Below, in pieces: positions 8,170-22,630 of a stretch of DNA of 64,000 nucleotides (position 1 is its first letter; each line of letters begins with the position of its first letter). Origin of the DNA: Rhodobacter sp. SGA-6-6. GTDB lineage: Bacteria; Pseudomonadota; Alphaproteobacteria; Rhodobacterales; Rhodobacteraceae. The translations under genes and the position numbers were made by a program. The stretch is from the NCBI RefSeq assembly GCF_011043545.1, contig NZ_JAAKGP010000002.1, positions 310,001 through 374,000 on the forward strand. Reading direction: 5' to 3'. The notes under the pieces are model-generated. The model did no database searches. It was not told where the DNA came from and saw only the letters and a list, made by a program, of their open reading frames with translations.

Positions 8170-8796
8170 ATGTATGACGCGCTTTTCTTCGACCTCGACG
8201 GCACACTGGTGGACACCGAATCCATCGCCATCGCCACCGGCATCGCCGCCTTCGCCGCCCATGGCCATCCGGTGGACGAGCCCTTCATGCATGGGCTGAT
8301 TGGCAAGGACGAACCCACCACCGCCGCCATCCTCCGCGCCGCCCTGCCGCAGGCAAACCTCGACGCGGTGAACCGCGACTGGCGCGCCAGCTTCGACGCC
8401 CGGGTGGAAGAGGGCCTGCCGCTGAAGCCCGGCGCGATGGAGCTGCTGGCCGGGCCGGAACTGCCGCGGGTCCTCGTCACCTCCACCGGCCATCACTGGG
8501 CGCACCGCAAGCTGCGGATCGCCGGGATCGCGCAGTCCTTCGCCCATGTCGTCACCCTGAACGACGTGGAGGCGCCGAAGCCCGCCCCGGCCCCCTATCT
8601 GCTGGCCGCGCGCCTCCTGGGGGTGGAGCCCGCCCGCTGCCTGGTGTTCGAGGACAGCGAGACCGGCGCCGAGGCCGCCTTCCGCGCCGGCTGCGTGGTG
8701 GTGCAGGTGCCGGACATCGCCCCGTCGCAGGGCCGGTGGGCGCATCATCTGGCGCCCGACCTGCTGACCGGCGCCCGCATGGCCGGGCTGATCTGA
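8170..8796 (+). CDS. HAD-superfamily hydrolase (phosphoglycolate phosphatase-like)
   Basis: 208 residues. It starts MYDALFFDLDGTLVDTES, giving HAD motif I (DLDGT), with a helical cap domain after it. Motif II is VTSTGH, motif III Lys is in EAPKPAP and motif IV is VFEDSETGAEAA. This is subfamily IA, as in phosphoglycolate phosphatase and beta-phosphoglucomutase. The substrate is unknown. The ATG at 8170 sits at motif I; longer in-frame starts run into repeat family A. Confidence 0.88.
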   Translation: MYDALFFDLDGTLVDTESIAIATGIAAFAAHGHPVDEPFMHGLIGKDEPTTAAILRAALPQANLDAVNRDWRASFDARVEEGLPLKPGAMELLAGPELPRVLVTSTGHHWAHRKLRIAGIAQSFAHVVTLNDVEAPKPAPAPYLLAARLLGVEPARCLVFEDSETGAEAAFRAGCVVVQVPDIAPSQGRWAHHLAPDLLTGARMAGLI

Positions 8797-8801
8797 CGGC
8801 C

Positions 8802-8822
8802 CCGATTTTCGCCGAAAATCGG
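8802..8822. repeat. short palindromic repeat family C, single unit
   Basis: Perfect inverted repeat with 10-bp arms CCGATTTTCG and CGAAAATCGG separated by one base, 5 bases after the HAD stop codon. Same design as units at 22631, 22654, 40337, 40362, 57112 and 57137. It may end transcription or be a REP-like element. Confidence 0.7.
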
Positions 8823-8883
8823 CCCCCGCTCCGCCGCCCGTCCTTGCGCTTGCGAATCCGACGCCCGCCCCCTATATCCGGCG

Positions 8884-8982
8884 GCGAGAGGTTGGCGCGG
8901 GCGAGCGCCTCGCCAACCCGGTCAGGTCCGGAAGGAAGCAGCCGTAACGAGCCCCGCTTGGGTCGTTGTCCAGCCTCTCACC
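8884..8982 (+). ncRNA. ffs: bacterial signal recognition particle RNA (4.5S RNA)
   Basis: The universally conserved SRP core is present: GGTCAGGTCCGGAAGG, AGCAGCCGTAACGAG and GGGTCGTTGTCCAGCC. The flanks GCGAGAGGTTGG and CCAGCCTCTC pair to close the long hairpin. With protein Ffh this RNA targets membrane and exported proteins co-translationally. End points are set by the closing stem and may be off by a few bases. Confidence 0.96.
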
Positions 8983-9006
8983 CCTCCCCATTCCATCGGC
9001 GCAAGG

Positions 9007-10203
9007 TCAGCCCCCGCCCGGGGTCAGCCGGATCAGCTGGCCGCCCTCGCCGTCGGTCAGCACCATCACCGATCCGTCGCGGGCTACCGCCACGTCGCGG
9101 ATGCGGGCGAAGCCCTGCAGGTAGCGCGCCTCGCCGGTGACGCGGCCGTCCGCGATCTCCAGCCGCACCAGCGCCTGCCCGGCCAGCCCGCCGATCAGCG
9201 CGCTGCCCTCCCAGCCCGGGAACAGCCCGCCCTCGTAGAAGGCCAGCCCGCTGGGGGCGATCACCGGGTCCCAGTAATAGATGGGCTGCTCCATCCCCTC
9301 GGCCTGGGTCAGCCCCTCGCCGACCGGGGTGCCGTCGTATTCCAGACCGTAGACGATCGCCGGCCAGCCGTAGTTCTTGCCCGCCTCCGGCCGGTTCAAC
9401 TCGTCCCCGCCGCGCGGCCCGTGCTCCACGGTCCAGAGCGCGCCGTCCGGGCCGATGGCGGCGGATTGCAGGTTGCGGTGGCCGTAAGACCAGATCTCGG
9501 GCTGCCCGCCGGGAATCTCCGGGTTGCCCTCGGCCGGGCCGCCCTCGGGGTCGATCCGCAGCACCTTGCCCAGATGGGTGGACACGTCCTGCGCCAGCGG
9601 CCGCGCCTCGATCACCGAGCGTTCGCCGGTGGTGACGAACAGCGCCCCGTCCGGCGCGAAGACCAGCCGCGAGCCGAAATGCAGCTTGGAGGCCCAGCCC
9701 GGCTCCTGCCGGAAGATCACCTTCACCCCGGTCATCTCGCGCCCGTCGGGCGACAGCGTGCCGGTGGCGACGGCGGTGCCGTTCAGCCCGCCCTCGCGGG
9801 GTTCGGCATAGCTCCACCACACCCGGCGGGTCTCGGCGAAATCGTCGCGGATCGCCACGTCGAGCAGCCCGCCCTGGCCTTCGGCGAAGACCTCCGGCAG
9901 GCCGGACACCGGCTCCGAGATACTGCCGTCCGGGCCGACGATCCGCATCCGGCCGGGCCTTTCCGTCACCAGCCAGCTGCCGTCCGGCAGTTCCTCCATG
10001 CCCCAGGGGTTGTCCAGCCCGGAGGCGACCACGCTGCGCTCCGGCTCGGCATCGGCGATCACCGGGGCGCGGGTCTGGCCCTCGAAGGCGGGGCGGTAGT
10101 CCGGCGCGTTCGGCGGCTCGGCGTTAAAATCCTGCGCCAGGGCCGCGGCGGGGGCGAGGGCCAGCAGGGAGACAAAGGTTCGCGAGAGAGGGGCAAGGGT
10201 CAT
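9007..10203 (-). CDS. PQQ-dependent sugar dehydrogenase (soluble glucose/sorbosone dehydrogenase family)
   Basis: 398 residues with a cleavable signal peptide ending ALAQDF near residue 24, so periplasmic. The six-bladed beta-propeller motifs are clear: LDNPWGMEELPDGSWLVTER, YGHRNLQSAAIGPDGALW and EHGPRGGDELNRPEAGKNYGWP, the last being characteristic of the GDH/YliI (Asd) group. It oxidises aldose-type sugars with a PQQ cofactor; the actual sugar is unknown. It ends close to ffs on the opposite strand and appears monocistronic. Confidence 0.92.
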   Translation of the reverse strand: MTLAPLSRTFVSLLALAPAAALAQDFNAEPPNAPDYRPAFEGQTRAPVIADAEPERSVVASGLDNPWGMEELPDGSWLVTERPGRMRIVGPDGSISEPVSGLPEVFAEGQGGLLDVAIRDDFAETRRVWWSYAEPREGGLNGTAVATGTLSPDGREMTGVKVIFRQEPGWASKLHFGSRLVFAPDGALFVTTGERSVIEARPLAQDVSTHLGKVLRIDPEGGPAEGNPEIPGGQPEIWSYGHRNLQSAAIGPDGALWTVEHGPRGGDELNRPEAGKNYGWPAIVYGLEYDGTPVGEGLTQAEGMEQPIYYWDPVIAPSGLAFYEGGLFPGWEGSALIGGLAGQALVRLEIADGRVTGEARYLQGFARIRDVAVARDGSVMVLTDGEGGQLIRLTPGGG

Positions 10204-10417
10204 CGGGGCCTCGAAATTCCGGGGCGGCGCGTTGCGGTCGCATCATGCCGCAGGGGAGATGGGAGGCAAGTATGCAGGCCCGGCCCCGCAGCGGAGCAGC
10301 AACAATCATGTGAGCCGCGGGGCGGCCCCGGCGCATGAGCGGAAACCTGCGGAGAAAAATCCGTCGGGATGGCGGGAGCCCGCCCGGCACCGCGGCGGGC
10401 GGCGGCGGGCGGCCCGG

Positions 10418-11026
10418 TCAGTCGGCGACGGTGAGGTCGGGGACCACGGCGCCGATGTTGTAACCCTCCAGCTGCGCGGCGGCGAAGTCGCCCGGCGGGA
10501 AGCTGAGGAGGGTGCCGGTGCCCGGGGTGACCGGGATCACCCGCGACGGCGGGATCTGCAAAAAGGCGTCCAGCGCCGCCCGGATCACCCCGCCGTGGAC
10601 CACCGCCAGCAGGTCCCCCTCGCCGGCCGCCAGCCAGTGGCGCAGGCCGGCGGCAACGCGGTCGCGGAACACCTCCCAGGGCTCGCAGCCCTCGGGGGTG
10701 TAAGTGCCGGCGCGCCAGGCGTGGTAGAGATCGGCATGGGCGGCGATCAGCTCGGGCTTGGTGCGGCCGGTCCAGCTGCCCATGTCCCATTCGCGCAGCC
10801 GCGGGTCCGAGGGACAGGTGCCATGGCCGATCAGCTCGGCGGTCTGCCGGGTGCGCCCGAGGTCCGAGGACACCACCCGCGCCGGCCTCAGCGCCCGCAC
10901 GAAGGCGCGGAAGCCGCGGGCCTGCTGGATGCCGCGCTCGGACAGGTGGGAATTGTCCTGCCCCTGCAGCCGCGATTCCGCGTTCCAGGTGGTTTCGCCG
11001 TGGCGCATCAGGATTAGGCGCATCAT
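10418..11026 (-). CDS. histidine phosphatase (phosphoglycerate mutase-like) family protein
   Basis: 202 residues, cytoplasmic. The catalytic RHG motif is in LILMRHGETTWN, and the second catalytic His is in VVHGGVIRA. These define the branch-1 histidine phosphatase fold (PhoE/GpmB/CobC-like). Its start overlaps the stop of the upstream ABC ATPase gene by four bases, so it is the last gene of the RpiR-ABC operon. An operon-encoded cytoplasmic phosphatase suggests that the transporter imports a phosphorylated compound that is then dephosphorylated; that role is inference. Confidence 0.9.
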   Translation of the reverse strand: MMRLILMRHGETTWNAESRLQGQDNSHLSERGIQQARGFRAFVRALRPARVVSSDLGRTRQTAELIGHGTCPSDPRLREWDMGSWTGRTKPELIAAHADLYHAWRAGTYTPEGCEPWEVFRDRVAAGLRHWLAAGEGDLLAVVHGGVIRAALDAFLQIPPSRVIPVTPGTGTLLSFPPGDFAAAQLEGYNIGAVVPDLTVAD

Positions 11027-12120
11027 TCGATCCTTTCGCCGGACAGGGCAAAGACGGCATCCGGCGTGCCGCAGAGGGTGAGGTCGATCCCGTCGCCCGG
11101 GTGGGCGTCGGGCATGTCTTCGGTGATGGCGGAAAGGCGGATCGGGCCGAGCAGCGCCGTCACCATCACCCGCCCGGCCATCGGCGCGGCCTCGGAGAAC
11201 TCGGCCCGGATCGCCGGGCGGCCGGCGGCCTTGGCGGTGGAAATCTGCTCGGCGCGGTAGAACAGCAGCACCTCGTCGCGGCCCTGCGCCAGCGCGGCGG
11301 GGGCCAGCGGGATGCCGGCATGGACCAGCATGTCCCCCTGCCGCCGCGCGGGCAGCAGGTTGCCGGGCGGCGTGCCCAGGAAGGTGGCGACGAAGGTGGT
11401 GGCCGGCCGCTTCAGCAGCGCGGCCGGCGGGCCGAACTGCTCCACGCGGCCCTGGTTCATCACCGCGACATGGGTGGCCATGGTCATCGCCTCCACCTGG
11501 TCATGGGTGACATAGACCGAGGTGGCGCCGGTGGCGCGGTGGATGCGCATCAATTCGCTGCGCATCTCGATCCGCAGCTTGGCGTCGAGGTTCGACAGCG
11601 GCTCGTCGAACAGCAGGATCGCGGGCTTCGGCGCCAGCGTGCGGGCAATGGCGACGCGCTGCTGCTGGCCGCCCGAGATTTCCGCCGGATAGCGGTCGCG
11701 CAGGGCGGAGATGCCCAGAAGCGCCAGCACCTCGCCGATCCGCGCCTCGCGGGCGGCCTTGTCCCAGCCGGCCACCTTCAGCGGCCAGCCGATGTTGCCG
11801 GCGACCGTCATGTGCGGCCACAGCGCATAGGACTGGAACACCAGCCCGGCGTTGCGCTTCCGCGGGTCGGCGACCACCCCGCCGGCACCGGAGGAGACCA
11901 CCTGCCCCATGAAGGCGATCTCGCCCGCCGAAGGCTCGTCCAGCCCGGCCAGCATCCGCAGGAGCGTGGACTTGCCGCAGCCGGAGGGGCCGACCAGCAC
12001 CAGGAAGGACCCGGGCGGCACGGCGAGCGAAAGGTCGGGGATGGCGGTGAAGTCGCCGAAGCGCTTGGCAAGGCCGGTGATGCGGATGGCATCCTGCGGC
12101 TCGGTCCGGACGGCGGGCAT
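11023..12120 (-). CDS. ABC transporter ATP-binding protein (AfuC/FbpC/PotA type)
   Basis: 365 residues. Walker A GPSGCGKST, signature SGGQQQRVAIARTL, Walker B ILLFDEPLSNLD and H-loop VTHDQVEAM are all present. The C-terminal 130 residues form a TOBE-like regulatory domain typical of CUT1/iron/phosphonate importers. ATG 12120 starts MPAVRTEPQ, 5 bp after the permease gene. It energises the fused permease upstream in the operon. By sequence the class covers ferric iron, 2-aminoethylphosphonate and sugar-phosphate importers; the neighbours favour a phosphorylated substrate. Confidence 0.93.
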   Translation of the reverse strand: MPAVRTEPQDAIRITGLAKRFGDFTAIPDLSLAVPPGSFLVLVGPSGCGKSTLLRMLAGLDEPSAGEIAFMGQVVSSGAGGVVADPRKRNAGLVFQSYALWPHMTVAGNIGWPLKVAGWDKAAREARIGEVLALLGISALRDRYPAEISGGQQQRVAIARTLAPKPAILLFDEPLSNLDAKLRIEMRSELMRIHRATGATSVYVTHDQVEAMTMATHVAVMNQGRVEQFGPPAALLKRPATTFVATFLGTPPGNLLPARRQGDMLVHAGIPLAPAALAQGRDEVLLFYRAEQISTAKAAGRPAIRAEFSEAAPMAGRVMVTALLGPIRLSAITEDMPDAHPGDGIDLTLCGTPDAVFALSGERIE

Positions 12121-12125
12121 GGCGG

Positions 12126-13868
12126 TCAGTCCTTCCATTTCTGCACCCGTGCCTGCAGCGCCTGCGCGACCAGCGAGGCGGCAAGGCAGATCGCAAGGAT
12201 CAGCACGGTGATGGCATTGGCGAATTGCATGAAGCCCTCGGCGGCGTAGCGGTAGGCCACCATCGACAGCACCGGCGAGGTGGCGCTGAACAGAAGGACG
12301 ACCAGCGACAGGTCGCGGACCATCTTGACGAAGACCAGGATCGCGCCGGCCAGCAGGCCGCGGATCGCCAGCGGGAAGACGATGGCCCACATCCGCCGCA
12401 GCGGCCCGGCCCCGGTCAGGCGGGCGCTTTCCTCCAGGTCGGTGGAGATCTGCCCGAGGACCGAGCGCCCGGCCTGCACCGCATAGGGCAGGTTGTGGGC
12501 GGCGGCGGCGATCACCAGCAGGGTGAAGGTGCCGTAGAGCGAGGGCAGCGGGCCGAGCGGCGCGCCGAAGAGCGCGATATAGGCGGCGGCGAAAGCGATC
12601 GAGGGGATGAGGAGCGGCAGAAAGGCCAGTTGCGACAGGACATTGGCCAGCACCGTGCCCTTGTTCCGGGTGATGGTATGGGCCAGCGCCAGCCCCAGCA
12701 CCATCGAGATCAGCGCCACCACCACGCCCAGCTTCAGCGTGTTGACCAAGGCCCCGATCAGCACCGGGTTGCGGAAGATGCCAGCGGTCCCTTGCGCGAT
12801 CTGCCCGCCGCCCTCGCCCAGCCAGAAATGCAGCGTCCAGTTCGAGAACAAAGCCCCGGTCTGCGGCGCCAGGCTGGAGGCCACCAGCACCACCACCGGC
12901 ACCACCGTGGTCAGCATCGCCAGCCCGAACCCCGCGGCGAACAGCGGCCAGCGCCAGCGGCCGAGGGGGAAGCGCCGGGTGCGGCCACCCTTGCCGGTGA
13001 CGGTGACGAAGGCGCGCCGGCCAGAGACCAGCCGGTCCGACAGGAACAGGAACACGCCCGAGACCGCGATCAGCAGCAGCGCCAGCACGAAGCCGCGCTC
13101 GGCCTGACCGATCTCGATCATGCCGAAGAGGCGGGTGGAAAGGGTCTGCATCCTGACCGGCAGCCCCAGCAGCGCGGGCGCGGCGAAATTCGCCACCGCC
13201 CCCGCCAGCGTCAGCGAGGCGGCCGAGACCAGCGCGGGCGTCACCACCGGCAGCACGATGCCGAAGAAGATGCGCGGCCGCCGCGCGCCGGTCATCTGCG
13301 CGGCTTCCACCAGATCGGCGCCGACCGAGGACAGCGCGGCGGCGATGATGGTGTAGGCCAGCGAATAGTAATGCGCGATCAGCACGATCAGCACCGGCAC
13401 GAGGCCCCAGGCCAGCCAGTCGGGGATTATGAAGCCGTTGGCCTCGAAGAAGCCCGACGACCCGCCCATGCGGCTGTTGCGGAACAGCGTGCCCCAGGCC
13501 AGCGCGGCGGCGAAGCTGGGGATCATGAAGGGCAGCGTGTGCATCACGCCCAGCAGGCGGCGGCCCGGCACGTCGGTCATCACCACCAGCCAGGCGGTGA
13601 AGCCGCCGAGCAGCAGGCAGCCGGCCGAGACCCCGAGGCCGAGGACCAGCGTGTTCATCAGCGGCCGCCACCACAGATTCGGCGACATCGGGCTTGCCAG
13701 CACGGCCCCCCAGGCCTCCAGCCCCGCCGGTGTCAGCGTGGCGAGACCGATGCGCAGCAGCGGTGCCAGCACCAGCACGCCGACGATCAGGATCATCAAC
13801 AGCGGCACCAGCCGGCGCGAGGTCAGCAGCCGGCGCCGGGGCGGCGGGGCGGTGGCTTGCAGGGACAT
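12126..13868 (-). CDS. ABC transporter permease, two fused MetI domains (AfuB/FbpB-like)
   Basis: 580 residues with about twelve membrane segments arranged as two homologous halves. Each half carries an EAA cytoplasmic loop that docks the ATPase: EAAQMTGARRPRIFFGIVLP in the first and ESARLTGAGPLRRMWAIVFP in the second. Fused permeases of this kind occur in ferric-iron and hexose-phosphate (AfuABC) importers. It lies between the solute-binding protein (52 bp gap) and the ATPase (5 bp gap). Confidence 0.92.
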   Translation of the reverse strand: MSLQATAPPPRRRLLTSRRLVPLLMILIVGVLVLAPLLRIGLATLTPAGLEAWGAVLASPMSPNLWWRPLMNTLVLGLGVSAGCLLLGGFTAWLVVMTDVPGRRLLGVMHTLPFMIPSFAAALAWGTLFRNSRMGGSSGFFEANGFIIPDWLAWGLVPVLIVLIAHYYSLAYTIIAAALSSVGADLVEAAQMTGARRPRIFFGIVLPVVTPALVSAASLTLAGAVANFAAPALLGLPVRMQTLSTRLFGMIEIGQAERGFVLALLLIAVSGVFLFLSDRLVSGRRAFVTVTGKGGRTRRFPLGRWRWPLFAAGFGLAMLTTVVPVVVLVASSLAPQTGALFSNWTLHFWLGEGGGQIAQGTAGIFRNPVLIGALVNTLKLGVVVALISMVLGLALAHTITRNKGTVLANVLSQLAFLPLLIPSIAFAAAYIALFGAPLGPLPSLYGTFTLLVIAAAAHNLPYAVQAGRSVLGQISTDLEESARLTGAGPLRRMWAIVFPLAIRGLLAGAILVFVKMVRDLSLVVLLFSATSPVLSMVAYRYAAEGFMQFANAITVLILAICLAASLVAQALQARVQKWKD

Positions 13869-13920
13869 GGGAAATCTCCGCCGGTGAGAGACGCGGCCAT
13901 CGGGCCGCGTCCCGCCTGCC

Positions 13921-15039
13921 TCATTGCAGGGTGATGATCAGGTCGGCGATCCGGGCGCGGTTCTCGGCCACCGCCTCGGTGTTGATGGTCCAGGCGTTCA
14001 GTTCCTCCAGCGGCACCGAATCCGGGTCGTCGGCGATGGTCGTGCGGGTGGCATAGTCGCCCGGCACGTTGAAGGGCGCGAAGGCGGGGCCGCCGTCGGC
14101 GCTGTCGTCGCCGAACATGAAGTCGATCAGCAGCCGCGCCGCCGCCGGGTTCGGGGCCTTGTCCGCCACCGCCAGCACCGCCGGGAACAGGATGCCGTTC
14201 GCCGGCTCCACATCGTTGGCGACCTGCAGGGCCCAGCCTTCCTCTTCATTGTCGCGGCGGTCGGAATAGGTGCCGAAGCCGACCGGCGGGTCGGTGGCGT
14301 CCTTGGTCCCCACCGCCTTGCTGAGGTCGTCGCTGTTCGACACCAGCACCAGGTCGTTCAGGAACAGGTTGCGGATGAACTGCTCTCCGGCGCCGGTCAG
14401 GTCGCCGTCCACCTCGATGTCGGTGCCGAACTGCGCCTTCCAGGCGGCGGCCATCTCGTCGGGATGCAGCGCGATCTCGGTCAGCAGGTCGAGCAATTCG
14501 CCCCGCTGGGTGGGATCGACCATCATCACCTTGCCCCGCCATTCCGGCAGGGTCAGCTGCCAGAGGTTGGTGATCGGGCTGCCGTCCGGGTAGGCGGCCT
14601 CGTTATACATCAGCACCTTGGTGGACAGGCGGTGCACCAGCAGCGGGGCCTTGAACTGCGCGTCCAGCTGGTCGGCCACCCGCGGCGGCACATAGGTGTG
14701 GATGCGGCCAGGGGCCAAGAGGTCGCGCAGCACCACCGGCGCATCGGCCATGTAAAGCACGTCCACCGCATGGACCCCGGCCTCCTGCTCGGCCACCACC
14801 CGGGCGATCTGCTTGGCCGAACTGAGGTCCAGCCCGATCAGGTCGATGCCGGGATAGGCTTCCTCGAAGGCCTTCTCCACCCGGGCGATGCGGCTGGAGA
14901 GCGAGAAGACGGTCACCGTCCCCTCCTCCTTCGCCAGCGCATAAAGCTCATCGCTGGACATCCGGTCCAGATCCTGCGCCGCGGCCAGGCCGGGGACGCA
15001 GGCCGCCGCCAGAAGCGCGGCCTTCAAGGTCTTGAACAT
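13921..15039 (-). CDS. ABC transporter substrate-binding protein (Fe(3+)/sugar-phosphate class)
   Basis: 372 residues. The signal peptide ends GLAAAQDLD near residue 22. The mature part has the two-lobed SBP fold typical of the iron/AfuA cluster: EEGTVTVFSLSSRIARVEKA, then EAYPGIDLIGLD and TNLWQLTLPEWRGKVMMVDP. No run of iron-liganding Tyr pairs is obvious, so iron is not assured. It is the second gene of the operon, 24 bp after the RpiR regulator. A phosphorylated sugar or organophosphate is the favoured ligand from context, not from sequence. Confidence 0.88.
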   Translation of the reverse strand: MFKTLKAALLAAACVPGLAAAQDLDRMSSDELYALAKEEGTVTVFSLSSRIARVEKAFEEAYPGIDLIGLDLSSAKQIARVVAEQEAGVHAVDVLYMADAPVVLRDLLAPGRIHTYVPPRVADQLDAQFKAPLLVHRLSTKVLMYNEAAYPDGSPITNLWQLTLPEWRGKVMMVDPTQRGELLDLLTEIALHPDEMAAAWKAQFGTDIEVDGDLTGAGEQFIRNLFLNDLVLVSNSDDLSKAVGTKDATDPPVGFGTYSDRRDNEEEGWALQVANDVEPANGILFPAVLAVADKAPNPAAARLLIDFMFGDDSADGGPAFAPFNVPGDYATRTTIADDPDSVPLEELNAWTINTEAVAENRARIADLIITLQ

Positions 15040-15063
15040 GGTCTCTCCTCCCAGAGATGGTTG

Positions 15064-15900
15064 TCATCCGAAGCGGTCGAACAGGCCCGCCAGCTCCTCC
15101 AGCTTGGCGACGACCTGGGTCTCGTGCCGGCCGGCGATGGTCAGCAAGATGGCGTTGACGATGGTCAGGGGAACGATCGGGGTCTGGAACTCGGTGCCCG
15201 ACCTTCCGCGGGGGGCGGCCAGCAGATGCCCGGCCGGCGGGGTCATGGTCGGCCCCGCCAGGTCCGAGATCAGCAGCGTGGGCGCGCCCACCTGCGCGGC
15301 ATGGCCCATCAGCGCCGCATAGTCGGCAGGCTGCTTGCGGAAGGCCAGCACCAGCACCAGGTCCTCCGGCCCGAGGCCGGTCAGCCGCTCGGCGATGTCG
15401 CGGCCGCGGCCGGTCAGCATCACCGTGGCCATGCCGAAGCGGTCCAGCCGCCGTTGCAGGAAGGCCGCCACCGCGGTGGCATGGCCCTGCGCGAAGATGA
15501 ACACCCGCCGCGCCGCGACGATCATGTCCGAGGCGATGTCCACGTCCGACTGGGCGACGCTGCGGGCCAGCTGCTCCAGCGCCGCCAGCTCGCTTTGCAC
15601 CAGATCGGCCAGATAGCTGCCGTCCGCCACCTTGGCGACCGAGCGGCGCATCCGCGCCGCGGCGTCCTGGCCCGCCATCATCTCCTTCTGCAACTGCGCC
15701 CGCAGCTCGGGATAGCCGCTGAAGCCCAGCTTCTGCGCCAGCCGGGTAGCGGTGGTCTCGTGCACCTGCGCCCGTTCCGCCAGCTGCGCGGCCGACAGGA
15801 ACACCGCCTCGCCCTGCTGGCCCAGCAGGACCTCGATGATGCGGCGGTCCGAGGCGGTCAGCCGTTCGGAACTGTCCTGGATGCGGGTGAGCAGGGTCAT
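15064..15900 (-). CDS. MurR/RpiR-family transcriptional regulator
   Basis: 278 residues. The N-terminal HTH_6 domain (about 1-75; AAQLAERAQVHETTATRLAQ) binds DNA. The C-terminal SIS domain (about 120-260; VFIFAQGHATAVAAFL and LVLVLAFRKQPADY) binds phosphosugars in this family. ATG 15900 is preferred because AAGGAAGG lies ten bases upstream; an ATG at 15933 adds 11 residues without a clear ribosome site. It is the first gene of the five-gene operon and is divergent from the alkaline phosphatase. It probably controls both sides through the inverted repeats at 15937-15984. Confidence 0.92.
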   Translation of the reverse strand: MTLLTRIQDSSERLTASDRRIIEVLLGQQGEAVFLSAAQLAERAQVHETTATRLAQKLGFSGYPELRAQLQKEMMAGQDAAARMRRSVAKVADGSYLADLVQSELAALEQLARSVAQSDVDIASDMIVAARRVFIFAQGHATAVAAFLQRRLDRFGMATVMLTGRGRDIAERLTGLGPEDLVLVLAFRKQPADYAALMGHAAQVGAPTLLISDLAGPTMTPPAGHLLAAPRGRSGTEFQTPIVPLTIVNAILLTIAGRHETQVVAKLEELAGLFDRFG

Positions 15901-15936
15901 GGGGTCGCAGCCTTCCTTGCGTCGGTTCAGCATTAT

Positions 15937-15984
15937 GCAGGAAAACCTGCGAGTCAGCGGATTCCTGCAGGATTTCCATCCTGC
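15937..15984. promoter_or_regulatory. pair of related inverted repeats, candidate RpiR operator
   Basis: GCAGGAAAACCTGC (15937-15950) and GCAGGATTTCCATCCTGC (15967-15984) share GCAGGA half-sites. Their centres are 32 bp apart, about three helical turns, so a dimer or tetramer could bind both on one face. They lie 37-84 bases upstream of the rpiR start in the divergent gap. Assignment to the adjacent RpiR protein is inference from position. Confidence 0.55.
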
Positions 15985-16017
15985 GGGAGGCCCAAGCAGC
16001 CCGCGGGCTTCATCCTA

Positions 16018-16046
16018 CTGTCATCCGCCTGCGCCCTTGCTGTCAC
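16018..16046 (+). promoter_or_regulatory. Pho box upstream of alkaline phosphatase
   Basis: CTGTCAT at 16018 and CTGTCAC at 16040 match the PhoB half-site and are exactly 22 bp apart, two 11-bp periods. Weaker half-sites lie in phase at 16029 (CTGCGCC) and 16007 (GCTTCAT). A possible -10 TAGAGC starts 10 bases after the last half-site (16057), the spacing expected for PhoB-activated promoters that lack a -35 element. It is 55 bp from the phosphatase ATG. Confidence 0.75.
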
Positions 16047-16101
16047 GGAAGGCGGCTAGAGCGGCTGCGGGACCATTTGCACGAACCCCGAAGAGGTATC
16101 C

Positions 16102-17856
16102 ATGCGCATCACCCTTGCCGCCCTTGCGGCCAGCACCATCCTTGCGGGCGCCGTCCAGGCCGCCGAGATCTATCCGCTCGACCGGGCGACGATCCTTGCC
16201 GGGTCGCCCTTCGACTTCAAGGTCGAGCTGGACGCCGTCCATGCCGAGGCCGACATCGCCGTCACCGTGAACGGCAAGCCCTATGCCGAGGTCTTCGGCA
16301 AGCCGGCCGAATTCGTGGCCGAGGAGAAGGGCGAGGACGATACCGTCCTCGGCTCCGCCCTGATCCTGCGCGACCTGGCGCTGGCCGAGCCGGGCAGCTA
16401 CGCCGTCGAGGTCAAGGCGGGCGACGAGGCCAAGGCGGTCACCTGGGAGGTCTACGGCACCGCCGGGGTGCCCAAGGCGAAGAACATCATCTTCATCATC
16501 GGCGACGGCCTGTCGGTCGCGCACCGCACCTCGGCCCGGATCATGGCCAAGGGCATGACCGGGGGCAAGGCGAACGGCCGGCTGGCGATGGACGACCTGG
16601 AGTTCATGGCCTTCATCGGCACCTCCTCGACCCATTCCATCGCCACCGATTCGGCCAACACCGCCTCGGCCTACATGACCGGGCACAAGAGCAGGGTGAA
16701 CGCGCTCGGCGTCTATGCCGACCGCACGCCGGACAGCTTCGACGACCCGAAGGTGGAGACCATCGCCGAGGCGCTGCGCCGCACCACGAAGAAATCCATC
16801 GGCATCGTCTCGACCGCCGAGATCGAGGACGCCACCCCGGCCGCCGTGGTCGCCCACACCCGCAAGCGCGGCGACAAGGCCGAGATCGTCGGCATGTTCC
16901 ACGACCTGCTGCCCGAGGTGGTCCTGGGCGGCGGCTCGGCCTATTTCCTCAAGGCCGACGTGCCGGGCTCGAAGCGCAAGGACGACAAGGACTACATCCA
17001 GCTGTTCCGCGACGCCGGCTATTCCATCGCCACGACGAAGGAAGAGCTGGCGGCGGCTTCGGGCAGCAACACCGGCCGCGTGCTGGGGCTGTTCCATACC
17101 GGCAACATGGACACCTGGCTGGACCGCGAGCAGCTGAAGAAGGGCACCGTGGACAAGTTCCCCGACCAGCCGGGGCTGGTGGACATGACCACCGCCGCGC
17201 TGGAGCAGCTGTCGAAGAACCCCGACGGCTTCTTCCTGATGGTCGAAGGCGCCTTGATCGACAAGATGTCCCACCCGATGGACTGGGAACGCTCGGTGCT
17301 GGAGACCATCGAGCTTGACCATGTCGTCGCGGTGGCGCGCGACTTCGCGGCGAAGAACCCCGACACGCTGGTGGTGGTGACGGGCGACCATACCCACGGC
17401 GTCTCGCTGATCGGCACCATCGACACCGAGAAGCCGGGCGACGAGATGCGCGAGAAGGTCGGCGTCTACGACGACGCGGGCTTCCCCGATTATGTCGATG
17501 CCGACGGCGACGGCTATCCCGACAGCGTGGACGTGAAGCGGCCGCTGGCGATCTTCGCCTCGAACTTCCCGGACTACTACGAGACCTGGGGCGCCAAGCT
17601 GGACGGCCCCTTCGTCCCGGCGATCCAGGATGCCGAGGGCAACTACGTCGCCAACGAGGCCTACAAGGACTGGCCCGGCGCGGTGCTGCGCGAGGGCAAC
17701 CTGCCGCGCGCGAACGACACCGCGGTCCATTCCGTGGACGACATGGTGCTGCAGGCTTCCGGCCCCGGCGCCGAGGCGTTCAAGGGCTACATGGAGCAGT
17801 CGGACGTCTACCGGGTGCTGGCCGATGTCTTCGCCCTCGGCGCGGCGCAGAAGTAA
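16102..17856 (+). CDS. alkaline phosphatase (PhoA superfamily)
   Basis: 584 residues. The signal peptide is cleaved around VQAAEI (residue 21), so periplasmic. It hydrolyses phosphomonoesters to release phosphate. The catalytic stretch TDSANTASAYMTGHK holds the nucleophile Ser184. Metal ligands are suggested by IIGDGLS, EGALIDKMSH and VTGDHTHG. An N-terminal beta-rich region (about 22-120) precedes the catalytic domain. Residues 466-477 (DADGDGYPDSVD) form a DxDxDG calcium-binding-like loop, unusual for this enzyme. It heads a four-gene operon and has a Pho box upstream, consistent with phosphate-starvation control. Confidence 0.93.
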   Translation: MRITLAALAASTILAGAVQAAEIYPLDRATILAGSPFDFKVELDAVHAEADIAVTVNGKPYAEVFGKPAEFVAEEKGEDDTVLGSALILRDLALAEPGSYAVEVKAGDEAKAVTWEVYGTAGVPKAKNIIFIIGDGLSVAHRTSARIMAKGMTGGKANGRLAMDDLEFMAFIGTSSTHSIATDSANTASAYMTGHKSRVNALGVYADRTPDSFDDPKVETIAEALRRTTKKSIGIVSTAEIEDATPAAVVAHTRKRGDKAEIVGMFHDLLPEVVLGGGSAYFLKADVPGSKRKDDKDYIQLFRDAGYSIATTKEELAAASGSNTGRVLGLFHTGNMDTWLDREQLKKGTVDKFPDQPGLVDMTTAALEQLSKNPDGFFLMVEGALIDKMSHPMDWERSVLETIELDHVVAVARDFAAKNPDTLVVVTGDHTHGVSLIGTIDTEKPGDEMREKVGVYDDAGFPDYVDADGDGYPDSVDVKRPLAIFASNFPDYYETWGAKLDGPFVPAIQDAEGNYVANEAYKDWPGAVLREGNLPRANDTAVHSVDDMVLQASGPGAEAFKGYMEQSDVYRVLADVFALGAAQK

Positions 17857-17866
17857 GGATCGAGAC

Positions 17867-17897
17867 GCGGCCGCCCGGATTTCTCCCGGGCGGCCGC
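17867..17897 (+). terminator. intercistronic hairpin after alkaline phosphatase
   Basis: Perfect 12-bp inverted repeat with arms 17867-17878 (GCGGCCGCCCGG) and 17886-17897 around a 7-base loop, 10 bases after the stop codon. No T-run follows, so it is more likely a partial terminator or a 3' RNA-stabilising stem that lowers expression of the downstream genes relative to the phosphatase. Confidence 0.5.
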
Positions 17898-17914
17898 ATC
17901 CATCGGAGGACAGG

Positions 17915-18370
17915 ATGACCGACGCCCTTCTCACCCGCAGGTCCTGGCTGGCCGCGATGGCCGCCGGGCTTTCGCTCCCGGCGCTGCGCCCGGCCTGGGC
18001 GGCGGCGCAGCTGTCCTTCGACGAGCTTTACGCCTCCTTCGGCCCGCTGGGGCTGGAGTTCTCCGACAAGGTGAAGGACCTGACCGGGCAGGAGGTGACC
18101 ATCCAGGGCTTCATGGCCCCGCCGCTGAAGGCCGAGGCGGATTTCTTCGTGCTGACGGAAATCCCGATGGCGCTCTGCCCCTTCTGCTCCACCGATGCCG
18201 ACTGGCCGGACAACATCCTGGTGGTCTACCTGCGCGCGAAGCAGACCTTCACCGATCCGAACCAGCGGATCGAGGCGCGGGGCGTTCTGGAGCGCGGGTC
18301 CTGGATGGACCCGGACACCGGCTTCCTCAGCCAGCTGCGCCTGCGCGACGCGCGGTTCGAGACGGTCTGA
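17915..18370 (+). CDS. DUF3299 periplasmic protein
   Basis: 151 residues. The N-terminus has a twin-arginine-like signal (TRRSWLAAMAAG) cleaved near AWAAAQ, so exported. The mature domain contains VTIQGFMAPP and a CPFC pair (Cys88, Cys91), matching DUF3299 proteins found beside MacB-like ABC pairs; in Pseudomonas such operons (PA4063-PA4066) respond to zinc limitation. GGAGGA is well placed before ATG 17915. It may bind or hand over a metal; the cysteines are candidate ligands. It is 3 bp upstream of the ABC ATPase gene. Confidence 0.8.
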   Translation: MTDALLTRRSWLAAMAAGLSLPALRPAWAAAQLSFDELYASFGPLGLEFSDKVKDLTGQEVTIQGFMAPPLKAEADFFVLTEIPMALCPFCSTDADWPDNILVVYLRAKQTFTDPNQRIEARGVLERGSWMDPDTGFLSQLRLRDARFETV

Positions 18371-18373
18371 GCC

Positions 18374-19054
18374 ATGCCCGACCTGCATCTTTCCGGCATC
18401 CAGGTGCTGTTCCCCGGCCTAGACGCCCCCGCCCTGCACATCCCCGAGCTGACGCTGCCTGCGGGCGGCAGGCTGGCCGTCGCCGGCCCCTCCGGCTCGG
18501 GCAAGTCGACGCTGGTCAACGTGATCGCCGGGCTGGAGCGCCCCAGCCGCGGCCGGGTGCTGTGGGGCGGCACCGACATCGCCGCGCTGTCGGAAAGCGC
18601 GCGCGACCGCTGGCGAGGGGCGAACATCGGGCTGGTGATGCAGGATTTCCACCTGTTTCCCGGGCTGTCGGCGCTGGAGAACGTGCTGCTGCCCGCCCGT
18701 CTGGCGCGCGTCGCCGACCGGGCGATGGCGGACCGGGCGGGCGAGTTGCTGGCCGAGGTCGGCCTGACCCGCCCCGGCCAGAAGGTCGAAACCCTTTCGC
18801 GCGGCGAGATGCAGCGCGTCGCCGTCGCGCGTGCCCTGCTGCGCCAACCGGGGGTGATCGTGGCGGACGAGCCGACCGCCAGCCTTGACCCGGCCAACGC
18901 CGCCGCCCTCGGCGCGCTGCTGGACGGGCTGGCGCAGCGGACCGGGGCGACGCTGATCGTGGTCTCGCACGATCCCGGCCTGATCGCCCGCCTGCCCCGC
19001 CGCATCGCGCTGGCCGGCGGACTGATCCGCGACGACACCGAAAGGGCCGCCTGA
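18374..19054 (+). CDS. ABC transporter ATP-binding protein, LolD/MacB type
   Basis: 226 residues, single nucleotide-binding domain. Walker A is GPSGSGKST, Q-loop VMQDFHLFPG, Walker B VIVADEPTASLDP and H-loop VVSHD. The signature is LSRGEMQRVAVARAL, with Arg in place of the usual first Gly of LSGGQ. The family drives mechanotransmission rather than substrate translocation. Start and stop are tightly coupled to its neighbours: 3 bp after the DUF3299 gene, and a TGATG overlap with the permease. Confidence 0.92.
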   Translation: MPDLHLSGIQVLFPGLDAPALHIPELTLPAGGRLAVAGPSGSGKSTLVNVIAGLERPSRGRVLWGGTDIAALSESARDRWRGANIGLVMQDFHLFPGLSALENVLLPARLARVADRAMADRAGELLAEVGLTRPGQKVETLSRGEMQRVAVARALLRQPGVIVADEPTASLDPANAAALGALLDGLAQRTGATLIVVSHDPGLIARLPRRIALAGGLIRDDTERAA

Positions 19055-20307
19055 TGCTGCGCTTCATCCTTGCCGATCTCGGCCGGCTCAAGGCCGGGTC
19101 CTTCGTCGTCGTGCTGCTGATCGCGCTGGCGGTGGCGCTCGGCACCGGCGTCACCTTGCAGGAGCGGGCGCTGCGGCTGGGCAGCGCCCGGGCCGCCGAC
19201 AGGTTCGACCTGGTGATCGGCGCGCCGGGCAGCGAGACGCAGCTGGTGCTCTCCACCGTCTTCCTGCAACCCGCCGCGCTGCCGCTGGTGCCGGGCGAGG
19301 TGCTGGCCGGGTTGCAGGACGATCCCCGCGTGGCCTGGGCGGCGCCGGTGGGCTTCGGCGATTTCCACCGCGGCCATCCGGTGGTCGGCACCACCACCCG
19401 GCTGATCGCCGAAACCGCGCCCGGCTTCGCCGGAGGGCGGATGTTCGCTGCCGAGGGCGAGGCGGTGATCGGCGCGCGGGTCGATCTGGCGCTTGGGGAC
19501 GGGATCACCCCGACCCATGGCGAGATCGGCCATGACCACGACGAGGTGCGTTATCGCGTGGTGGGCCGGCTGGAGCCGACCGGCACCCCCTGGGACCGCG
19601 CCATCCTGGTGCCGATCCAGGCGGTCTGGCATGTGCACGGGATGGAAGCGGGGCATGGGGAGGAAGCGCACGACCATGCGGAAGAGGATCACGACCATGA
19701 CCACGGCCACGCCGGCTTCGACCCCGATGCGCCGCTGGCCGAGGATTGGCACGATGGCGAAACCCCCGACGTTCCGGCCATTCTGGTGAAGCCCGCCAGC
19801 ATCGCCGATGCCTACCGGCTGCGGCAGGACTATCGGGTAGAGGAGGGCACCCTGGCGATCTTCCCGGCCGAGGTGCTGACCAATCTTTACGGCACTTTGG
19901 GCGATGCGCGGCAGGTGCTGGCCGCCGTGGCCGCGGCGGCGCAGGGGCTGGTGGCGGCGGCGCTGCTGCTGGTGACGATCACCCATGTCGGCCAGCGCCG
20001 GCGGCAGATCGGCGCGCTGCGGGCGCTCGGCGCGCCGCGGGGGGCGATCTTCGCGCTGGTCTGGAGCGAGCTTTTTGCCCTGATCGCCTGCGGCGTCGCA
20101 CTCGGCCTCGTCCTCGGCTGGCTGGCCGCGCGGCTGCTGTCCCGCATGATCGCCGACCGGCAGGGCTTCGACCTGCCGGTGGAATTGGCCGCGGCCGATT
20201 TCGCCGGGCTGGGGCTGCTGCTGGCCGCTGCGGCGCTGCTGGCGGCGCTGCCGGCCTGGATGGCCTACCGGCAATCCCCGGTCGCCAGCCTGCGCGGACA
20301 GGCCTAG
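19054..20307 (+). CDS. FtsX/MacB-family ABC permease with histidine-rich periplasmic loop
   Basis: 417 residues with four membrane segments: one near residues 15-35 and three in the C-terminal 150 residues, separated by a large periplasmic domain. That is the MacB/FtsX topology. Residues 193-219 of the periplasmic domain are strongly enriched in His, Asp and Glu (about ten His), a likely Zn or other divalent-metal binding patch. With the ATPase it forms a complete type VII-like ABC unit. Co-operonic DUF3299 and a zinc-dependent alkaline phosphatase suggest metal supply or loading in the periplasm; this is inference. Confidence 0.88.
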   Translation: MLRFILADLGRLKAGSFVVVLLIALAVALGTGVTLQERALRLGSARAADRFDLVIGAPGSETQLVLSTVFLQPAALPLVPGEVLAGLQDDPRVAWAAPVGFGDFHRGHPVVGTTTRLIAETAPGFAGGRMFAAEGEAVIGARVDLALGDGITPTHGEIGHDHDEVRYRVVGRLEPTGTPWDRAILVPIQAVWHVHGMEAGHGEEAHDHAEEDHDHDHGHAGFDPDAPLAEDWHDGETPDVPAILVKPASIADAYRLRQDYRVEEGTLAIFPAEVLTNLYGTLGDARQVLAAVAAAAQGLVAAALLLVTITHVGQRRRQIGALRALGAPRGAIFALVWSELFALIACGVALGLVLGWLAARLLSRMIADRQGFDLPVELAAADFAGLGLLLAAAALLAALPAWMAYRQSPVASLRGQA

Positions 20308-20308
20308 C

Positions 20309-20788
20309 CTACCCGGCCGAGGCCCAGAGGAACTGCGCCTCGGTCTCCACCGCGCAGGGGCGGACGGCGCGCAGGCGGGCCAACGCGGACTGCGGCGCCT
20401 CGCCGGTCTCGACCAGCAGCCGCAGCACCGCCATGCCCGACCGGCCGCAGCCGCCCAGGCAATGCACCAGCACCCGGCCGCCGCCCGCCAGCACCGCCCT
20501 CGCCTCAGCGGCAACCGCCGGCCAGGCCGAAGCGACCGCCGCCTCCGGCAGGCCGAAGTCCGCCACCGGTAGGTGCCGCCAGCGGATGCCATGGGCGGCA
20601 AGGTCCTCCGCCAGATCCCCCGCACCCTTCGCCGCCAGTTCCTCCGCCGTCGCCATGGTCAGCACCAGTCCCGGCCCCCAGGCCAGCACCTCGCGCAGGT
20701 CGGCGCCATAGGCTCCGCCCCGCCCCGGCATCGGGCAGAGCGCCAGTTCCCCGCCGCCCGCCGGCAGGCTCGCGATCATCAGCGCCAT
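20309..20788 (-). CDS. dual-specificity / tyrosine phosphatase-like protein
   Basis: 159 residues, cytoplasmic. The P-loop VHCLGGCGRSGMA matches Cx5R (Cys110, Arg116), and ADFGLPE holds a likely general acid Asp77. It is a compact PTP/DSP-like phosphatase; similar proteins act on phosphoproteins or small phosphates, and the substrate is unknown. It ends 1 bp from the end of the FtsX-like gene (convergent) and starts 78 bp from dnaX (divergent). Confidence 0.82.
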   Translation of the reverse strand: MALMIASLPAGGGELALCPMPGRGGAYGADLREVLAWGPGLVLTMATAEELAAKGAGDLAEDLAAHGIRWRHLPVADFGLPEAAVASAWPAVAAEARAVLAGGGRVLVHCLGGCGRSGMAVLRLLVETGEAPQSALARLRAVRPCAVETEAQFLWASAG

Positions 20789-20866
20789 CCGCCCTCCTTC
20801 CCGGTGGACCTTGCCCGGCCCGCGCCCTAGTCTGGCGCGCGCAAACCCGAAGGTCCCGAGTCCCCG

Positions 20867-22615
20867 ATGTCCGACGCCCCCGAGAAAGCCTATCAGGTCC
20901 TGGCCCGCAAGTATCGGCCCGAGACCTTCGCCGATCTGGTCGGCCAGGATGCCATGGTGCGCACCCTGCGCAATGCCTTCGCCGCCGACCGCATCGCCCA
21001 GGCCTTCGTGATGACCGGCATCCGCGGCACCGGCAAGACCACCACCGCGCGGATCATCGCCAAGGGGCTGAACTGCATCGGCCCCGACGGCAGCGGCGGC
21101 CCGACCACGGAACCCTGCGGCAAATGCGAGCATTGCGTGGCGATCATGGAGGGCCGCCATGTCGACGTGATGGAGATGGACGCGGCCTCGCACACCGGGG
21201 TCGGCGACATCCGCGAGATCATCGACTCGGTCCACTACCGGGCGGCAAGCGCGCGCTACAAGATCTACATCATCGACGAAGTGCACATGCTGTCGACTTC
21301 GGCCTTCAACGCGCTGCTGAAGACGCTGGAGGAGCCGCCGGCGCATGTGAAGTTCATCTTCGCCACCACCGAAATCCGCAAGGTGCCGGTGACGGTCCTT
21401 TCCCGCTGCCAGCGCTTCGACCTGAAGCGGATCGAGCCGGAGGTGATGATCGCGCTCCTGCGCAAGATCGCCACCGCCGAGGGCGCGCAGATCAGCGACG
21501 ACGCGCTGGCGCTGATCACCCGGGCGGCCGAGGGGTCGGCGCGGGATGCGACCTCGATCCTCGACCAGGCGATCAGCCATGGCGCCGGGGAGACCACGGT
21601 GGACCAGGTCCGCGCCATGCTGGGGCTGGCGGACCGCGGCCGGGTGCTGGACCTGTTCGACATGGTGATGCGCGGCGACGCGGCGGCGGCGCTGTCGGAA
21701 CTGGCGGCGCAATATGCCGATGGCGCCGACCCGATGGCGGTGCTGCGCGACCTGGCCGAGGTGTCGCACTGGATCTCGGTGATCAAGATCACGCCCGAGG
21801 CGGCGGAGGACCCGACCGTGCCGCCGGACGAGCGGTCCCGGGGGCTGGAGATGGCGGGGCGGCTGTCGATGCGCAGCCTTGGCCGGATGTGGCAGATGCT
21901 GCTGAAGGCGATGGAGGAGGTGGGCCTTGCGCCCAATGCGATGATGGCGGCCGAGATGGCGGTGATCCGGCTGACCCATGTCGCCGAACTGCCGGACCCG
22001 GAGACGCTGGTGAAGCGGCTGACCGATGGGCCGCGGCCTTCGGGCGGCGCGCCCGGGGGCGCTCCGGCCGGGGGCGGCCCGGTGCATGGCGCGATGATGC
22101 GCGCGCCCGCCGCGCCGATGCGCGGGCCGGTGATGGCGGCCGCGGCGCCGGCGCTGGCCGAGGGGCAGTTGCAGGTCTACGCCAGCTTCGATGCGGTGAT
22201 CGACCTGATCCGGGACAAGCGCGACATGTTGCTGCTGAAGGAGGTGGAGGATTGCGTCCGCCTGGTGCGCTACTCCCCCGGCCGGATCGAGTTCGAGCCG
22301 GTGCCGGAGGCGAAGCCCGACCTTGCCGCAAGGCTGGGCCAGCGGCTGCAGGGCTGGACCGGGGCGCGGTGGGGGGTGTCGGTGACGGGCTCCGGCGGCG
22401 CGCCGACCATCGCCGAGGCGCGGGAGGCGCAGGACAGGGCACTGAAGTCGGAAGCCGAGGACAACCCGCTGGTGCAGGCCGTCCTCACCGCCTTCCCCGG
22501 CGCGAAGATCACCGCTGTCCGCCGGCCCGAGGACCTTGCCGCCCAGGCCGCGGCCGAGGCCCTGCCGGAGGCGGAGCCGGAAGTGGATGACGACTGGGAC
22601 CCGTTCGAGGAGTGA
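20867..22615 (+). CDS. dnaX: DNA polymerase III subunit gamma/tau
   Basis: 582 residues. The clamp-loader AAA+ domain (about 1-370) begins YQVLARKYRPETFADLVGQD. It has Walker A GIRGTGKTT, a zinc-binding Cys cluster (CGKCEHC), Walker B IIDEVHM, and sensor 1 FATTE. A Gly/Pro/Ala-rich linker (about 380-425) leads to the tau C-terminal region. It loads the sliding clamp at the replication fork. It is followed by ybaB and recR, the usual alphaproteobacterial order. No obvious slippery A-run for a programmed frameshift was noticed. Confidence 0.97.
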   Translation: MSDAPEKAYQVLARKYRPETFADLVGQDAMVRTLRNAFAADRIAQAFVMTGIRGTGKTTTARIIAKGLNCIGPDGSGGPTTEPCGKCEHCVAIMEGRHVDVMEMDAASHTGVGDIREIIDSVHYRAASARYKIYIIDEVHMLSTSAFNALLKTLEEPPAHVKFIFATTEIRKVPVTVLSRCQRFDLKRIEPEVMIALLRKIATAEGAQISDDALALITRAAEGSARDATSILDQAISHGAGETTVDQVRAMLGLADRGRVLDLFDMVMRGDAAAALSELAAQYADGADPMAVLRDLAEVSHWISVIKITPEAAEDPTVPPDERSRGLEMAGRLSMRSLGRMWQMLLKAMEEVGLAPNAMMAAEMAVIRLTHVAELPDPETLVKRLTDGPRPSGGAPGGAPAGGGPVHGAMMRAPAAPMRGPVMAAAAPALAEGQLQVYASFDAVIDLIRDKRDMLLLKEVEDCVRLVRYSPGRIEFEPVPEAKPDLAARLGQRLQGWTGARWGVSVTGSGGAPTIAEAREAQDRALKSEAEDNPLVQAVLTAFPGAKITAVRRPEDLAAQAAAEALPEAEPEVDDDWDPFEE

Positions 22616-22630
22616 CCGGCCCGCCGCACA

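Follow-up and report, generated by a model that had tools for sequence, protein, structure and literature searches.

Do the two divergent operons found in Rhodobacter sp. SGA-6-6 form a single system for the use of phosphorylated compounds, or are they two systems that share a promoter region, and what might an ABC-type machine do in one operon with an exported alkaline phosphatase? The DNA analysed was a stretch of 64,000 nucleotides (the window; NCBI contig NZ_JAAKGP010000002.1, positions 310,001 to 374,000). A preliminary description proposed that nine genes around a 201-bp divergent promoter region make up one two-sided phosphoester-use unit. The nine genes were located where it had placed them, between 10418 and 20307, five on the minus strand and four on the plus strand. 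The minus-strand genes, here called the left module, encode an RpiR/MurR-type regulator, a solute-binding protein, a fused importer permease, an importer ATPase and a histidine phosphatase. The plus-strand genes, here called the right operon, encode a PhoA-type alkaline phosphatase, a small protein with a CPFC motif (the CPFC protein), a LolD-like ATPase and an FtsX/MacB-like permease. The 201-bp gap holds given an RpiR start at 15900, which we prefer to the ATG at 15933 because the latter overlaps a -10-like element that, as judged by eye, is also present in the related locus L012. Our overall explanation, which we think is probably right, is that the locus consists of two modules, a PhoB-controlled phosphatase operon, perhaps with its own metal supply, and an RpiR-controlled importer.

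Two modules around one intergenic region

The peptide patterns [IM]PMA[LI]CPF and [DT]ADWP[DR][ND]I were used to look for relatives of the small CPFC protein in a genome collection at species level. There were 264, and the analysis kept the best 80 of them, which are mostly from Rhizobiaceae and are not independent of one another. Genes for the phosphatase, the small protein, the LolD-like ATPase and the permease were found in the same order and on the same strand in all 80 of these best loci, a linkage count that is independent of the phosphatase because the small protein was the search query. None of the 80 loci contained a match at 1e-6 to the RpiR regulator, the binding protein, the fused permease or the histidine phosphatase of the left module. 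Likewise, no match at 1e-6 to the alkaline phosphatase, the small protein or the FtsX-type permease was found in the seven stretches, 17-20 kb each, that carry the left module elsewhere (L012, L113, L114 and L154-L157, the last four being Fuscovulum, Shinella, Martelella and S. meliloti plasmids). A further binding-protein orthologue, L013, lies on a 3.1-kb contig that is uninformative on linkage. The preliminary description had itself named linkage of the two operons elsewhere as a test of its proposal, and such linkage was found at none of these loci; no second case of all nine genes linked was seen among the loci examined. The other part of that test, a response to phosphate, is favoured by the Pho boxes on the right side. 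Among 100 relatives, binding-protein matches were found in 6 genomes and phosphatase matches in 5, with the window's own genome counted in each. The two close binding-protein orthologues were those of the same-genus genomes G009 (92% identity) and G011 (89%), both of which were without a phosphatase match at 1e-30. Joint conservation far exceeds chance for the four genes on the right, and the same holds for the five on the left as a set of their own. We conclude with high confidence that two independently conserved modules share one intergenic region.

That the two operons are one functional unit, as the preliminary description had it, is very improbable. Its phosphorus theme was borne out, since the right side has a Pho box and the left side a phosphatase gene together with, at three of eight module loci, a sodium/phosphate (Na/Pi) cotransporter gene; the single unit built on that theme was not. 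The common 201-bp gap speaks for one unit, as does the fact that both operons lie within one accessory block missing from the same-genus genome G006. The linkage counts speak against it, as do the distinct control elements on the two sides and the finding that no Pho site with fewer than five mismatches precedes rpiR in L012 or L113.

Probable PhoB control and spread of the phosphatase operon

The right operon begins with the alkaline phosphatase gene (16102-17856, plus strand), whose product matched PF00245 (Alk_phosphatase) with 239 bits against a cut-off of 24.4 and is longer at the N terminus by about 120 residues. In the sets of loci used here (82, 87, 91, 92 and 94 members), one or two duplicates are included, L124 for example matching L096. 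At the catalytic serine and metal-ligand positions, named after the E. coli PhoA residues, nine of eleven positions were identical in 87/87 phosphatases, and the equivalents of D153 and K328 were identical in 85/87.

A Pho-box array lies 55 bp ahead of the phosphatase start, at 16018-16046 on the plus strand. It consists of CTGTCAT at 16018 and CTGTCAC at 16040, 22 bp apart with a degenerate unit between them, and nowhere else in the 64 kb do two CTGTCAY words recur with a period of 11 or 22 bp. To score such sites across relatives, mismatches were counted over 14 fixed positions in 82 upstream regions (the window, L017 and the 80 loci), of which 81 are distinct, L017 being the L030 genome with an identical upstream region. 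A Pho site with three or fewer mismatches was present upstream of the phosphatase in 61 of the 82 regions, where shuffled sequence would give about 1.2 such regions and windows drawn at random from these loci 1.4, with the proviso that the loci are related to one another. The better site was on the gene strand in 79 regions and tied in 3, and on the other strand a site with three or fewer mismatches was found in just one of the 82. The position, orientation and frequency of these sites indicate that the right operon is very probably under PhoB control. In its Alk_phosphatase domain, conserved metal-ligand positions and upstream Pho box, the operon resembles the PhoA-type alkaline phosphatases of Pho regulons; unlike them, it has the N-terminal extra stretch and co-encodes an ABC machine and the CPFC protein. 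In genomes G073 and G184 the unit adjoins a gene for a protein with a PBP_like_2 match, which we read as PstS from the start of its sequence. According to the available portion of one report, S. meliloti SMc03243 is a strongly phosphate-induced gene for a putative alkaline phosphatase (PMC8829014). The SMc03243 product may be related to the right-operon phosphatase.

The right operon occurs in two phyla. The same four-gene order was found in 5/5 phosphatase-bearing plasmid records examined, those of Paracoccus aminovorans, Azospirillum B510, Roseomonas OT10, Deinococcus radiodurans R1 and Allomeiothermus silvanus, the last two being Deinococcota. By their coordinates, phosphatase and permease genes are also near neighbours in Sinorhizobium americanum CCGM7 and in a single record from Thermus thermophilus. 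A search of 387 genomes of the class gave 15 with a PhoA-type match, and in six of these (G000, G441, G184, G073, G098 and G240) a permease match lay within 4 kb; the ATPase gene of G098 is in the opposite orientation. Over 91 loci the pairwise distances of phosphatase, small protein and permease were correlated (r 0.86-0.91). A unit moving as a whole would show this, and common ancestry alone would also produce it. No published description of this operon was found in literature mostly outside subscription journals.

A possible metal supply for the exported phosphatase

What, then, might the other three genes contribute? The CPFC protein (17915-18370, plus strand) has 151 residues and a signal-like, twin-arginine start. 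The preliminary description had labelled it DUF3299, a label that sequence comparison did not bear out: no Pfam family was matched even at E 10, DUF3299 (PF11736) included, a profile search of the PDB was negative, and an hhalign comparison with one canonical protein was not significant. The predicted fold agrees with the label, the solved structure nearest to the predicted model (mean pLDDT 80) being 4hsp, the DUF3299 protein PA4066 (E 3.1e-5, TM 0.52, 16% identity). Kinship with DUF3299 may thus be retained on the grounds of predicted fold, motif position and ABC context. Canonical DUF3299 proteins (the 25 best loci of a DUF3299 search plus L126 and L128) have CIHxPPPP or a near form of it, and the phosphatase-linked small proteins have CPFC in its place. 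CPFC was present in 94/94 proteins, a count favoured by the scan pattern in 80 of them, and in all 13 copies found without the CPF pattern. A weak Pfam-positive DUF3299 member encoded at L125 has the motif CPFCPPPGP, intermediate between the canonical and the phosphatase-linked forms, which it thereby links. By a simple RR test on the open frame, a twin arginine stands 60-100 residues ahead of CPFC in 93/94 proteins, the exception being that of Allomeiothermus; a similar, not identical, test found one in 7/28 canonical DUF3299 proteins. None of the sites from the DUF3299 search lay near the PhoA-type sites of the 387-genome search. A role for CPFC as a disulfide helper for the phosphatase is disfavoured, the mature phosphatase being free of cysteine in 85/92 cases.

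The remaining two genes encode the LolD-like ATPase (18374-19054, plus strand) and the FtsX/MacB-like permease (19054-20307, plus strand), both assigned by family matches. The permease has a His-rich loop, and such a loop, with at least 6 His in 40 residues, was present in 79/87 phosphatase-linked permeases. The loop was considered as a hallmark of zinc handling and was set aside as core evidence, since it is also present in the phosphatase-unlinked L120, L125 and L127 and is absent from the Deinococcota copies.

Operons that combine DUF3299 with ABC genes are, in the available text of two reports, Zur-regulated zinc-starvation operons of Vibrio and Pseudomonas (PMC9817125, PMC8561739). As far as the available text of the reports goes, ZrgABCDE of Vibrio and PA4063-PA4066 of Pseudomonas aeruginosa share with the right operon a separate ATPase and MacB-type permease and a small exported protein of the DUF3299 fold (PMC8561739, PMC9817125, PMC11481552). 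Unlike them, the right operon has an alkaline phosphatase gene and a Pho box, and CPFC in place of CIHxPPPP; further, none of its four proteins matches the His-rich DUF2796/PA4063 partner.

This gene context leads us to suggest, tentatively, that the ABC/CPFC machinery loads the phosphatase with metal. Under low phosphate, PhoB would induce the exported phosphatase, which is of the zinc/magnesium type, along with the CPFC protein and the MacB/Lol-type ABC machine. The CPFC protein would fold in the cytoplasm, perhaps be loaded with metal there, and exit by the twin-arginine translocation (Tat) pathway; a protein that leaves by Tat would hence be folded and possibly metal-loaded. The ATPase and permease would couple the use of ATP to the action of the CPFC protein outside the cytoplasm, and the CPFC protein would pass its metal to its client, the newly exported phosphatase, so that the enzyme and its metal supply would rise together. 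In its fullest and still more tentative form, the suggestion is that the CPFC protein and the MacB-like ABC unit might together be devoted to the ATP-driven maturation of an exported metalloenzyme, with a Tat-exported chaperone that took up its metal in the cytoplasm being emptied into apo-alkaline phosphatase. Phosphate starvation would induce this machine along with the enzyme in Alphaproteobacteria, and Deinococcota have the same set of genes.

Several observations weigh against a phosphate-controlled phosphatase operon with its own metal supply. In the 387-genome search, 9/15 genomes with a PhoA-type match had no permease match within 4 kb, and the phosphatases of these genomes therefore work without the ABC unit. 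The long form of the phosphatase was found in 5 genomes, four with the unit and one, G342, without it, and no match to the small protein was seen in G073. Both Deinococcota permeases lack the His-rich loop, with no 40-residue stretch holding more than 2 His in one and 3 in the other, and the loop is also missing in G073, G184 and others. Three CPFC proteins (L118, L119 and L120) are unlinked to a phosphatase, one of them being beside a pyrroloquinoline quinone (PQQ) dehydrogenase. Finally, 21 of the 82 upstream regions had Pho sites with four to six mismatches, including the Martelella copies L025 and L027 with six.

A last such point also favours a rival explanation, namely that the ABC unit exports or releases an envelope cargo, such as a metal chelate, a lipid, a lipoprotein or the phosphatase itself, and that the link with the phosphatase reflects location or housekeeping and not metal supply. 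In the available text of one report, the Pseudomonas relative was modelled as MacB, assigned to export and proposed to be an exporter of a pyochelin-cobalt complex (PMC11481552). The right-operon permease belongs to the same FtsX/MacB class. In Azospirillum B510, TolC-, ABC- and HlyD-type efflux genes (L159 932-5750) immediately precede the phosphatase operon, and in Roseomonas a gene for an outer-membrane efflux protein is nearby. Within the operon itself, however, the five annotated plasmid records show no adaptor or TolC gene, and the unit is retained in Deinococcota despite the different envelope of that phylum. We consider export of this kind somewhat unlikely.

Exported alkaline phosphatases are usually assumed to acquire zinc spontaneously outside the cytoplasm. 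The presence of the operon in two phyla suggests that a dedicated metal route may exist for one such phosphatase. The DUF3299-MacB units, which are unexplained, would also gain from this operon a defined enzyme as partner for a functional assay, and the right operon is present in tractable organisms, namely D. radiodurans, Paracoccus and Rhizobium. At two loci, L119 (6144-11983) and L117, genes for a CPFC protein and an FtsX-like permease are next to that for a PQQ dehydrogenase, which replaces the phosphatase; the CPFC-permease unit may serve other exported metalloenzymes too.

The importer module and the accessory block

The left module was found at eight loci (the window and the seven stretches named above), with genes for RpiR, binding protein, fused permease, ATPase and histidine phosphatase. 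In the window all five genes are on the minus strand. The regulator gene (15064 to about 15900, the start being inferred) encodes HTH_6 and SIS domains. The solute-binding protein (13921-15039) has a predicted fold like those of MctA, FbpA, AfuA and P5PA (model pLDDT 86). The fused two-half permease (12126-13868) contains two PF00528 (BPD_transp_1) stretches and is PhnU2-like under the cut-off, and the ATPase (11023 to about 12120) is UgpC/PhnT2/PotA-like, under every cut-off shown. The histidine phosphatase (10418-11026) matched PF00300 (His_Phos_1) with E 2e-46; its nearest NCBIfam family is CobC, under its cut-off. A histidine phosphatase gene is present at seven of the eight loci, L114 being without it, and a Na/Pi cotransporter gene lies directly downstream at three (L012, Fuscovulum and Martelella). 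Because of these two gene associations we favour phosphoester import, and on balance the left module probably has this function. The RpiR-controlled importer would take up an anionic, probably phosphorylated, organic solute, the cytoplasmic histidine phosphatase would dephosphorylate it and, in some relatives, the Na/Pi cotransporter would handle the released phosphate. The module is thus a compact candidate system for the uptake of intact phosphoesters.

The preliminary description had called the importer AfuABC-like. The class II binding-protein fold agrees with this; an AfuA-like specificity does not follow. The fold matches include the AfuA structures 4r73 and 4r74, with E about 1e-13, but scores as good or better go to ferric and metal-citrate binders, and the fold neighbours as a whole include binders of metal-citrate, ferric ion, sugar phosphate and pyridoxal phosphate. 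The sugar-phosphate ligand residues of AfuABC are Ser37, Thr150, His205, Asp206 and Glu229 (PMC4546632), and the 13-17% identity of the fold alignments is too low for a reliable map of these residues. The module resembles the AfuABC hexose-phosphate and P5PAB pyridoxal-phosphate importers in being an ABC importer with a class II binding protein and a likely phosphorylated solute; it differs from them in this low identity, in having RpiR and a histidine phosphatase in the operon, and in the Na/Pi cotransporter of some relatives.

Might a metal-carboxylate, for instance metal-citrate, or ferric ion be the cargo of the importer instead, the histidine phosphatase being incidental? In fold and profile comparisons the binding protein is matched best by the metal-citrate protein MctA and by iron-binding proteins. 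A tandem tyrosine is a hallmark of classical ferric-binding proteins, and it was absent from the ten binding-protein homologues. With the RpiR/SIS type of the regulator, and the association with the histidine phosphatase and the Na/Pi cotransporter, this makes a metal substrate distinctly unlikely.

An inverted repeat, GCAGG-N4-CCTGC, lies at 15937-15950 (minus strand) between -35-like and -10-like elements of rpiR that were judged by eye. Both the window and L012 have it ahead of rpiR, and it was not seen in L113; it is a probable RpiR operator, separate from the Pho box. A second inverted repeat is at 15967-15984. That relatives have the left module under Pho control was rejected, the best sites before rpiR having six (L012) and five (L113) mismatches. 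At L114 (1526-4888), a gene for a Cas9-like protein of 1120 residues (RuvC_III, HNH_4) is beside the left module that lacks the histidine phosphatase.

Both operons are part of an accessory block of 11.3 kb (8993-20317). The block starts 10 bp past the signal recognition particle (SRP) RNA gene (RF00169; 8886-8982, plus strand; 56.6 bits) and also contains a GSDH-family (glucose/sorbosone dehydrogenase) gene at 9007-10203 on the left-module strand. In G006, matches to window positions 8170-8992 and 20318-22613 are 18 bp apart (stretch L101), and therefore the entire block, the GSDH-family gene and both operons, is absent from that genome. In G011, matches to 8849-8982 and 20796-22618 are about 1.2 kb apart with other DNA in between, which by eye was read as a GTPase gene. 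A foreign origin was sought in base composition and gave no signal, the third-position GC content of the block genes being 0.89-0.945, as compared with 0.93 for dnaX. At the block ends no repeats were found, the longest exact match being 13 bp and away from the ends, and no integrase gene was found there; the window contains no tRNA genes. One block holding both operons is compatible with joint gain or loss and counts in favour of a shared history, but at no other locus examined were the two operons seen together. Adjoining the right operon, outside the block on its dnaX side, is a minus-strand gene for a dual-specificity-type small phosphatase (20309-20785), with matches to PTP-SAK, CDKN3 and Y_phosphatase.

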